From NCBI GenBank assembly GCA_021162845.1, contig JAGGXX010000027.1:1-64000 (forward strand): 64,000 bases of DNA, written 5' to 3'. Made by a program: the position numbers and the translations under genes. Of the stretch, positions 21,373 to 24,243 are shown piece by piece. The notes beneath the pieces were generated by a model. The model saw only the letters and a program-made list of their open reading frames with translations. It did no database searches and was not told the origin of the DNA. Every line of letters starts with the position of its first letter. Position 1 is the stretch's first letter. Source of the DNA: Thermoprotei archaeon. GTDB lineage: Archaea > Thermoproteota > Thermoprotei > QMSL01 > B3-G16.

Positions 21373-22638
21373 TTATTTCATAAGCTCTTTAAGCATATCT
21401 CTAGCTTTTGACATCAGTATGTCCCCCGCTTCCGGCGCCACTATTGCCATAGTCGGTTCGTATCCTCCTTCCTCGTATGCTCTAGGAGTTGGTACATAGT
21501 AGATGGTGTCATTGGCTAGTTCGCTTATAAATAACATGTTGACACCTATCTCGCTCGCATATCTCTTAAGCTGAAGCTGATACTCAACGAAGATTTCTCC
21601 GGGTAAGCCTATTAGGGCTACGTCGCCTATCCTAAATGCCTGAACCTCGGTGGCTATATTCTTAGCACCACCCCTGATCTCGTTTATATGATCTCTTAGC
21701 GGATGAGGCTTCATCCATGTTTTAATCATCTCAGGGATATCATCCCTTACGGGTAACTTGATGGTGTCAAGTGCCGAGCGGATCCTCACGTCAGACGTGA
21801 ATTTAGTTATGGTCGTTATCGCCTTTAACGCCGATGCTCCTATCATTAAGCCTATACGCCTTGTCTCCTCTAATCTCGGCTTTAACTCCCTCGGGAAAGT
21901 CCTCTTGGGAGGGATCTTCTCGTCTGGTCTATCCCATATCCATCGTGGGTTTATGTTACCACAACATCCATTAATGAAGATGGCAGGCCCCTTTAAAACG
22001 TCCTCTAGGAGGCCTATCACGTAATTAGGATAGTCCTTGGAGATCCTTAATTCATCCGGGCCCAGCGTAACGGGATGACAGGCATAGTTCACTAAGGTGC
22101 ACATGTTCCTCCCTTCATGGTCCTTGACGAACATCACTGTGACTTCGGGGTCTAAGGGGCCCTCAGGCCAAGAGTACAGGAAGTATGGACCGTATGGACT
22201 CTTAGGGTTCCTACGGTTAGCTCCAGCGAGACAATGGCTCTTGGCGAAGCCTATATAGGCGTCCTTCATATTGCTGATAGCAGAATACACAGTACCGGCT
22301 ATCTGCTTTTTCAGGACCTCTAAATACGCATCGCTCACTTGAGTCAAATCAGGCCCGTAATGGGTATGGATACAAGAGATCATCACTTCCCTTTCGTGAA
22401 GTCCCATCCTCTCCTCTATTGACTTCTTAACATCTTTCACGAAGCTCCTGCTCAGCCATAGGAGGTCACAGACTATTATGGCTATAGTTTTCTCTCCACT
22501 ATCGAGGACTAAGGTCCTAACATATAGGTCATCTAATATGCCCACGGAAGGTTGTACCCTATGAGCATATCCCGATAACCTCGTCCCTATGGGAGGTGTT
22601 ATCACGGCCTTAGCTACTCCTGCCTTAAGCTGATTCAT
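21373..22638 (-). CDS. Neutral/alkaline ceramidase-domain-like protein (paralogue 1)
   Basis: The 421-residue protein matches the N-terminal domain family of neutral ceramidases: AVITPPIGTRLSGYA at the start, ISCIHTHYGPDL, NYACHPVTLGPDE and FINGCCGNINPRW, which supply the metal-binding His and the active-site loop, and GLPGEIFVEYQLQLK near the C-terminus. The C-terminal Ig-like ceramidase domain and a signal peptide are missing, so it is cytoplasmic and about half the size of true ceramidases. Archaea lack ceramides; an amide-bond hydrolase acting on another substrate is the likely role. A paralogue lies at 53759-55066. A TATA-like GCTAAAATATG is present about 25 bases before the start. Confidence 0.75.
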   Translation of the reverse strand: MNQLKAGVAKAVITPPIGTRLSGYAHRVQPSVGILDDLYVRTLVLDSGEKTIAIIVCDLLWLSRSFVKDVKKSIEERMGLHEREVMISCIHTHYGPDLTQVSDAYLEVLKKQIAGTVYSAISNMKDAYIGFAKSHCLAGANRRNPKSPYGPYFLYSWPEGPLDPEVTVMFVKDHEGRNMCTLVNYACHPVTLGPDELRISKDYPNYVIGLLEDVLKGPAIFINGCCGNINPRWIWDRPDEKIPPKRTFPRELKPRLEETRRIGLMIGASALKAITTITKFTSDVRIRSALDTIKLPVRDDIPEMIKTWMKPHPLRDHINEIRGGAKNIATEVQAFRIGDVALIGLPGEIFVEYQLQLKRYASEIGVNMLFISELANDTIYYVPTPRAYEEGGYEPTMAIVAPEAGDILMSKARDMLKELMK

Positions 22639-22778
22639 AGATCCTACTATGGACTATGGCATATTTTAGCGCATGGATATTGAATGCTACAGCCTGGAAC
22701 CATGAATAAGGGTTGGTAACTGTTTCCTGTTTGTAAGTCTTTTAAGGTCTCTGTAGGTTCTAGTATGCCTCTTTAGGG

Positions 22779-23060
22779 TTGGAAAGTTTATCTAAATCCG
22801 TAAGAAAACTCCCTGCTTTAGCGGGGGGATGGATTGCGGTTAAGCTTAAATACACGTTTACCGTCTTTAAACATGGCATGTTGCCGATGACGAGGCGGAG
22901 CAGTATCCGCCCTGAGAACGGGGAGGGCATAGCCCGCTCCTTAACGAGAGGAGTGGGATGGGGCTGTCGTGAGCCAGCCCTTAACTCCCGTATGAAGCCG
23001 TCCGCCGTAAAGGCGGGTGGAACGGGGGAAGCTCCGTCCCTTAGGGCGGGGTAGCTCACC
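22779..23060 (+). mobile_element. Decayed IS200/IS605 (IS1341/TnpB-type) element, internally deleted
   Basis: A left-end hairpin CCCTGC-TTTA-GCGGGG (22811-22826) and a right end GGAAGCTCCGTCCC-TTA-GGGCGGGGTAGCTCAC (hairpin 23034-23049) have the form of IS605-group termini. The plus-strand frame ending RMKPSAVKAGG...EAPSLRAG resembles the tail of archaeal TnpB proteins, but no RuvC core is present, and there is no TnpA. The element is therefore a MITE-like remnant of about 250 bp. The flanks of the 22639-23187 gap carry no other gene. Confidence 0.6.
22875..23060 (+). ncRNA. Orphan omega/reRNA-like structured RNA of the IS605 remnant
   Basis: A TATA-like CTTAAATAC (about 22845-22853) precedes a GC-rich, hairpin-dense stretch. 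GGCGGA-6-TCCGCC (22894-22911) sits between ATGACGA and CTGA, box C- and box D-like sequences closed by CCG/CGG, a kink-turn-like arrangement. GGGC-ATA-GCCC, CCGCC-GTAAA-GGCGG (23002-23017) and the right-end hairpin follow. In complete TnpB elements the guide RNA spans the tnpB end and right end, with the guide read from flanking DNA, here starting CATTAACTCGC. Expression and partner are unknown. Confidence 0.45.
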
Positions 23061-23187
23061 CATTAACTCGCTAAGGGTAGATCATCAGCCCTTACAAGCG
23101 CGATCATCGGCTTACCTCAGCTAGCCTGGAGTCATCATTTATGGATCTTTATGATTATAGTCGTAGAAAAACTATATAAAGTGAGGG

Positions 23188-24243
23188 CTAGGGCTTGACT
23201 ATTACCTTGATAGGATTGCCTATCTTCTCCATCACGACTTTGAAGGCTTCGTGTATTCTATCGAGCGGAAACGTATGCGTTATGAGGGGCTTAAGCTGTA
23301 CCTTGCCAGCCGCGGCAAGTCTTATCGCTGGTTCGTACGCGTTGGCATACCGGAAAACGCCCCTTATGTCTAATTCCTTATCTATCAGGAGCGCTGGCCT
23401 GAGTGGGATTTCCTCGGCCTCGAATATCCCTATCTGTACGATAACTCCTCCAGGCCTCACAACCCTTAGTGCATCCTCGAAGGCCTTCGTAGCTCCTGAA
23501 ACCTCGAACACGACGTCCGCGCCTCGACCATCTGTTAAGCTTGATATCTTCTTGCTTACGTCTTCCTTAGCCGCGTTCACTACATGATCAGCTCCTAGTT
23601 TCTCAGCTACCTCCAATCGATAGTCGAGTATATCCACCGCTATAGCCGTTGCAGCACCGCTGGCCTTCGCGGCCTGCATAGTCAGCAAGCCTACCGGCCC
23701 GCAGCCGAAAACCGCTATTACGGAGCCATCCTCTAGGTTGCAACGTCTGACCCCCTGCATACCGACTGCAAGCGGCTCTATGAGCGCACCCTCCTCATAG
23801 CTTAAATTAGGAGGTAATTTATATACGAAGGCCGCATCCGCTGGGGCATATTCCCTGAAAGCACCATGGATGGGAGGAGCTCCGTAGAACTTCACATTCG
23901 GACATAAGTTGTACTTGCCTATCTTACAGAAGTAGCAGCGACCGCATGGAAATCCGGGCTCTATAGCTACCCTATCGCCCTTCTTTACGTTAGTCACGTT
24001 CTCCCCGACCTCCACTATTTCCCCAGCGCTTTCATGCCCTAATACTAAGGGCTCCTTAACCACGAATGTGCCACACCTACCGGTCTTATAGAAGTGTATG
24101 TCAGAACCACATATACCTACCGCCTGGATCTTCACCAGAACCTCGTTGGGGCCTATTTCGGGTATTTCCATCTCCTCAAGCCTCATATCGAAGGGCTTGT
24201 AGAGTATAGCGGCCTTCATACGGCCTTTCATGGATCCCACCAT
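23188..24243 (-). CDS. Zinc-dependent medium-chain polyol/alcohol dehydrogenase
   Basis: The 351-residue MDR enzyme has both zinc sites: catalytic ICGSDIH (Cys) with LGHESAG (His-Glu), and the structural four-Cys lobe PCGRCYFCKIGKYNLC. The Rossmann motif is IAVFGCGPVGLLTM, with ASP in VDILDYRLEVAEKLGA suggesting NAD preference. Closest relatives by pattern are sorbitol/xylitol dehydrogenases and L-threonine 3-dehydrogenases, so oxidation of a polyol or sugar is likely. The start may be ATG at 24243 or the internal ATG of MKGRMKAAIL. It is divergent from the creatininase gene, sharing a 78-base promoter region. Confidence 0.85.
   Translation of the reverse strand: MVGSMKGRMKAAILYKPFDMRLEEMEIPEIGPNEVLVKIQAVGICGSDIHFYKTGRCGTFVVKEPLVLGHESAGEIVEVGENVTNVKKGDRVAIEPGFPCGRCYFCKIGKYNLCPNVKFYGAPPIHGAFREYAPADAAFVYKLPPNLSYEEGALIEPLAVGMQGVRRCNLEDGSVIAVFGCGPVGLLTMQAAKASGAATAIAVDILDYRLEVAEKLGADHVVNAAKEDVSKKISSLTDGRGADVVFEVSGATKAFEDALRVVRPGGVIVQIGIFEAEEIPLRPALLIDKELDIRGVFRYANAYEPAIRLAAAGKVQLKPLITHTFPLDRIHEAFKVVMEKIGNPIKVIVKP

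Follow-up and report, generated by a model that had tools for sequence, protein, structure and literature searches.

The stretch from about position 22,804 to 23,059 of the window (the whole 64,000 nucleotides of DNA analysed here, from a 2.18 Mb archaeal assembly that is 95% complete) raises the question of where an apparently free-standing structured RNA with a promoter in front of it came from, and whether it could still be used. The locus sits between two minus-strand open reading frames (ORFs), 21373-22638 and 23188-24243. A first-pass annotation had placed the element at 22805-23060 and read it as an IS605/TnpB remnant that has lost its catalytic core and carries a box C/D-like RNA; the extent is roughly right, with the start corrected to about 22804.

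Ends and origin of the element

When the same genome was searched with 22760-23080 as query, both ends of the element were found again at one longer copy, G000:C1:14130-15237, which carries a broken tnpB. The ends are as follows:

22804-22838, plus strand: left end (LE), GAAAAC followed by the subterminal hairpin CTCCCTGC-TTTA-GCGGGGG and by GATGGATTGCGG; 94% identity over 33 nt with the left end of the C1 copy (G000:C1:14130-14162)
22809-22828, plus strand: left-end hairpin, matching the longer C1 copy
23032-23051, plus strand: terminal hairpin of the right end (RE), made of covarying helices 5 and 6

The right end matches G000:C1:15126-15233 with 92% identity over 108 nt. Both proposed terminal hairpins are present and recur in the longer copy. 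In the C1 copy the ends lie ~1 kb apart and the space between them is filled by tnpB pieces with several stops; because both ends are common to the two copies, the window copy is the same kind of element minus nearly all of tnpB. No TnpB core is found between its left and right ends, as had been claimed. A GATGAATTGCGG-like sequence occurs at the equivalent place ahead of other tnpB genes, and identity with relatives runs out near 23059, the element end. The subterminal hairpins at both ends are thus homologous to those of a tnpB-bearing element, and the tnpB core has been deleted with the ends retained; 22804-23059 is very probably a core-deleted element of the IS200/IS605 (IS1341-like, TnpB) type, a PATE. 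Collections of phage and plasmid sequences gave no matches to the element.

The relatives support the IS605/TnpB identity, which had first rested on the shape of the termini and a TnpB-like tail; related copies with tnpB, whose absence would have spoken against the original proposal, do exist. Full-length copies with intact or nearly intact TnpB were found at L013 (genome G033), L017 (G131), L037 (G006) and L085/L132; those nearest to the window element are the copy on contig C1 of the same genome, with its broken tnpB, and that of another Thermoproteota genome (L085/L132). The closest 3' end outside the genome, with 91% identity over 131 nt, is L132 (JAPDJU010000002.1, a Thermoproteota MAG). 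The tnpB-less short form is recurrent: at least seven other copies lack the gene (L014, L027 and L031 in G119, L032 in G131, L084 in G126, L087 in G374 and L093 in G041), and all of them still have the palindrome of the left end, a TATA-like box, a leader of the GATGTT type and the RNA. In G119 the RNA of this family (R1, below) occurs at four places, L014, L027, L031 and C1:984095-984235, and the short form may have multiplied there, since the three inspected copies are similar in left end, leader and joint.

Core-deleted IS605 elements are described as PATEs (palindrome-associated transposable elements) in Haloquadratum (PMC3119063). They resemble the window element as IS605-type elements cut down to their ends by core deletion, and many are terminal-only and shorter (52 bp); the likeness concerns the ends and the deletion.

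Promoter, leader and deletion joint

The region between the left end and the RNA scaffold contains the following features:

22845-22853, plus strand: TATA box of the former tnpB promoter, CTTAAATAC
22875-22885, plus strand: 5' leader mini-hairpin GGCA-TGT-TGCC, the equivalent of GGGA-YGU-UCCC in relatives and the expected tnpB transcription start
22887-22889, plus strand: former tnpB start codon ATG; in relatives ATG, GTG or TTG directly follows the leader hairpin
22884-22925, plus strand: the kink-turn-like core proposed in the first-pass annotation, a short non-conserved segment at the deletion joint, flanked by the tnpB start and the tnpB 3' end and matching box C/D at chance level
22887-23054, plus strand: leftover 55-codon ORF in which the start codon is fused to a TnpB C-terminal tail (...IARSLTRGVGWG...), its C-terminal part matching TnpB tails

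A promoter does stand directly in front of the RNA, as had been proposed, but it is not newly placed there for the RNA. In 62 of 66 tnpB genes of the R1 group the start codon is immediately preceded by the 11-nt motif GGGAYGTTCCC (counted when at least 9 of its 11 positions agree), and in the same 62 a TATA box of the same sequence type lies at -29 to -23 from that motif; shuffled upstream sequence attains 9 of 11 positions in 6 of 1320 trials. In the window CTTAAATAC lies at the distance from the leader GGCATGTTGCC that is expected of tnpB, ~22 nt ahead of the hairpin, and a comparable box was seen directly in L004, L085 and L037. Since box and leader are common to tnpB genes, the TATA box is the inherited tnpB promoter, moved next to the RNA by the deletion; a newly acquired promoter was rejected because the same box and spacing already exist in tnpB genes. 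The leader itself behaves as a hairpin: its outer pair is a standard pair in 52 of 57 sequences, against 43 expected by shuffling, and the third pair, G-C in relatives, is swapped to C-G in the window, which preserves it. To our knowledge, no GGGAYGTTCCC mini-hairpin at the transcription start of archaeal tnpB genes has been described. Loci with this leader include L013, L037, L085, L130 and L146, and the start codon after the motif is variable.

The box C/D core had been proposed in just this region, as a site for L7Ae. A box C/D RNA carries box C (RUGAUGA) and box D (CUGA) next to stems, and the letters ATGACGA and CTGA are literally there around a 6-bp hairpin; the best covariance model, sR53, aligns the first 11 nt. 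It scores 15.5 bits against a cut-off of 49, however, with an E-value of 0.31 for 451 bases, and an extra GAA separates box D from the outer stem, so that the segment fails the C/D models, named in the first pass as a check, and the boxes come with no score above a C/D family cut-off. The 'box C' ATGACGA begins with ATG-ACG, which directly follows the leader hairpin and occupies the place of the tnpB start codon; L013 reads GGGGATGTTCCCCTATGACC there (ATGACC), and its TnpB begins MTSVV. No homologue of 22884-22925 was found in any relative, and its local folding is unremarkable (z = -1.76, a level reached by 14 of 200 shuffles). In simulated sequence the core layout, searched for loosely, turns up ~0.15 times per 64-kb strand, so a single case in the window, chosen afterwards, is unremarkable. 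The candidate was rejected on these grounds, and it is hardly credible that the element is a box C/D-like RNA whose kink-turn core lies here; the letters that it shares with box C/D sRNAs near a short stem are those of the tnpB start. Two other loci gave weak C/D signals: a near-threshold sR11 match at a related locus (L087, 2554-2608; 31.8 bits, cut-off 39), and matches to sR3, sR35, sR5 and sR23 (11-14 bits, E 0.36-2.3, with ATGATGA and CTGA present) on the minus strand of the window at 23079-23142, just downstream of the element.

The tail of the leftover ORF continues that of full-length TnpB, which reads ...RDLNxxINIAxALTRGxGWG in relatives. As a protein-coding gene the ORF was rejected because related tnpB-less copies have early stops in this frame; judged by these non-conserved reading frames, it is probably not a gene. 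The origin in tnpB of 22890-22924 is not clearly traceable, and the exact deletion joint cannot be mapped because the short form is single-copy in this genome.

The RNA scaffold and its conserved loop

The RNA scaffold at 22933-23059 is intact, and every helix is kept in the window:

22933-22957, plus strand: helix H1 of the omegaRNA scaffold, 10 bp; 99% of cells paired, two-sided changes in 6 of 10 pairs (12 sequences)
22961-22980, plus strand: helix H2 (GGGCUG/CAGCCC), with a loop that takes part in the long-range helix; minimum-energy fold and 12-sequence alignment
22969-22974, plus strand: 5' strand of the long-range helix, GUGAGC, pairing with 23054-23059; 98-100% paired, two-sided changes among GC, AU and CG
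22985-23028, plus strand: helix H3 with a conserved kink-turn-like internal loop (AUGA 22992-22995 / GA-AC 23020-23023); outer stem 99-100% paired, with compensatory changes
23054-23059, plus strand: 3' strand of the long-range helix, GCUCAC, at the element end; supported by covariation

The hairpin-rich RNA region noticed in the first pass is real both by folding (22928-23060, z = -4.45, 0 of 200 shuffles as low) and by its match to a covarying family. In an alignment of twelve right ends, made from sequence alone, RNAalifold gives 32 pairs, 17 of them with two-sided changes; none of 500 shuffles reaches any of five covariation measures, and sliding by one column abolishes the signal. A covariance model of this RNA (R1) was then run over 398 genomes of the phylum; 43 of them contain the family, and the window itself scores 126 bits (E 1.4e-24). 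Among 52 distinct sequences two-sided changes occur at 24 of the 32 pairs; the covariation score reaches 0.53, compared with 0.18 in shuffled alignments, and the signal vanishes when slid one column; the main weight is on the 12-sequence alignment, because that of 52 sequences was fitted to the model. Conserved structure in relatives, the absence of which would have spoken against the original proposal, is therefore present, and it extends over the tnpB 3' end and right end of tnpB-bearing relatives, as in a TnpB omegaRNA. The window has no Rfam match at gathering threshold.

A conserved kink-turn-like loop does occur in the element, ~100 nt downstream of the proposed core and inside the omegaRNA (22990-22995 with 23020-23023). 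Its AUG and AAC are nearly invariant in the 52 sequences (A 50/52, U 52/52 and G 48/52 on one strand, A 51/52 and A 52/52 on the other). A kink-turn consists of a 3-nt bulge followed by tandem sheared G.A and A.G pairs; the corresponding columns are G 48/52 with A 51/52 for the first and A 38/52 with G 34/52 for the second. The loop resembles the 'RUGA' of box C facing 'GA', but its second, opposite strand is longer by two nucleotides, and for this reason it is called only kink-turn-like. It could bind L7Ae. Together with the 5' leader hairpin this testable loop is part of a consensus now obtained for a large archaeal omegaRNA family.

Partners, precedents and fate of the RNA

In the omegaRNA (reRNA) of IS200/IS605 elements the scaffold overlaps the tnpB 3' end and stops at the right end, which puts the flank in guide position; the window element differs in that its nuclease gene is gone. 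By this architecture one further feature would be added:

23060-23080, plus strand: flank that would occupy the guide position in an RNA employed as an omegaRNA

The first pass had suggested a guide for a TnpB encoded elsewhere. In such trans activity the orphan RNA would load into a TnpB from another locus (or one brought in by a mobile element) and direct it to the empty donor site, the short element being maintained like a full one. The scaffold is wholly intact and the promoter is kept, several tnpB-less copies keep the same set of parts, and the three G119 copies share left end, leader and nearly the same joint, as if the short form had multiplied. Against this, the sole cognate tnpB copy of the assembly is broken, so that no intact cognate TnpB is associated with the RNA; the other TnpB genes are truncated or belong to another subfamily (partial matches at about 25-51% identity). 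No R1 scaffold was found elsewhere in the genome besides the window and the broken copy (next match E 0.08), and none adjoins another TnpB. TnpA is represented by only two fragments of 60-63 aa. The flank as guide for a second target was also rejected: its first 18 nt match only their own site and sites at 3 mismatches, with no other genome match at fewer than 3. On these findings an orphan RNA or a relic is preferred to an active guide in trans. A cognate TnpB might be missing from the assembly, which is 95% complete; nonetheless, a guide role in this genome appears unlikely from the gene content, and we give trans activity of the orphan RNA a slim chance. The longest TnpB-like protein of the genome (L008, G000:C22:43841-44041; 444 aa, an open frame) has FNVQYVACFN in place of the YNRDLNAAIN of relatives. 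The third RuvC (catalytic) Asp thus seems to be missing from it, which also counts against trans activity, and it is possibly a nuclease-dead TnpB. L008 lies downstream of an ORF resembling a serine recombinase (IS607-like).

A precedent for orphan RNAs of this origin exists in Pyrococcus abyssi, where sRkB and sRkC are OrfB-related, promoter-bearing RNAs that bind L7Ae at two kink-turns, and where a host-gene regulatory role was suggested for sRkB (PMC3124441). Like the window RNA they come from the 3'-terminal part of an IS605/OrfB (TnpB) element. They are about 210 nt long and have kink-turns, where the window RNA has a kink-turn-like loop, and their BRE/TATA lies 24 nt before the 5' end, a promoter being present ahead of the window RNA too; their transcription and L7Ae binding are experimental, whereas the window RNA is known from sequence and is compared by description. 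By analogy, the window RNA could have been domesticated as a regulatory sRNA, bound by L7Ae through the H3 loop and acting on host genes, and the near invariance of the AUGA/GA-AC loop fits this. That loop is common to tnpB-bearing elements, however, so that its conservation reflects the parent system, and the two genomes of the same family that were searched gave no match; domestication is accordingly considered unlikely.

That the locus is a silent, decaying relic with no transcript deserves more weight, at somewhat less than an even chance. It is single-copy and no intact TnpA or cognate TnpB partner was found, and silence is common among such remnants, 4 of 6 related copies in P. abyssi lacking BRE/TATA and being untranscribed (PMC3124441). 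Against decay, the promoter, its spacing and the leader hairpin, which has a compensatory swap, are all preserved, as is each helix of the RNA; this is unexpected of a long-decayed relic and expected of a recent deletion.

The favoured reading, very probably correct, is that an internal deletion took nearly all of tnpB out of an IS200/IS605-type element. It spared the left end, the tnpB promoter, the leader hairpin and start codon, and the right end together with the whole omegaRNA scaffold. Transcription would start at about 22874 and yield an orphan RNA like sRkB, sRkC and HgcC, of about 190 nt with 3' flank in addition. As no intact cognate TnpB or TnpA turned up in the assembly, this RNA is most likely stable but unemployed (or the element a silent relic), and the element immobile unless proteins are supplied in trans. 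The case shows that an omegaRNA can be parted from its nuclease with no new promoter being acquired, since deletion of the tnpB core brings the tnpB promoter to the RNA. The window element is a well-preserved new example of a type of leftover RNA already known from other archaea.

HgcC RNAs of Thermococcus kodakarensis, which are found within transposase genes as well as away from them (PMC4247193), are a second precedent. Positions 1-130 of the HgcC model (RF00062) align end to end with 22959-23072 of the window, sharing a CUGACC/GGUCAG-type long-range pairing and the terminal hairpin, at 17.2 bits against a gathering cut-off of 50; the window is thus below the level of family membership, and the model lacks H1 of the R1 family. 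No locus in 101 genomes exceeds the HgcC cut-off, and 7 of 23 sub-threshold loci in Thermoproteota (L099-L121) lie on a tnpB 3' end on the same strand. Judged from these alignments, HgcC RNA appears to be an omegaRNA-type RNA, which would link the long-unexplained HgcC RNAs to TnpB elements. A broader proposal, that promoter-plus-omegaRNA elements without tnpB form a recurrent 'RNA-only' class in Thermoproteota, mobile or regulatory, which provides guides or L7Ae-bound RNAs in trans, with HgcC as the Thermococcal face of the same RNA, is improbable. An HgcC-type alignment is also seen at L013, 1483-1591.
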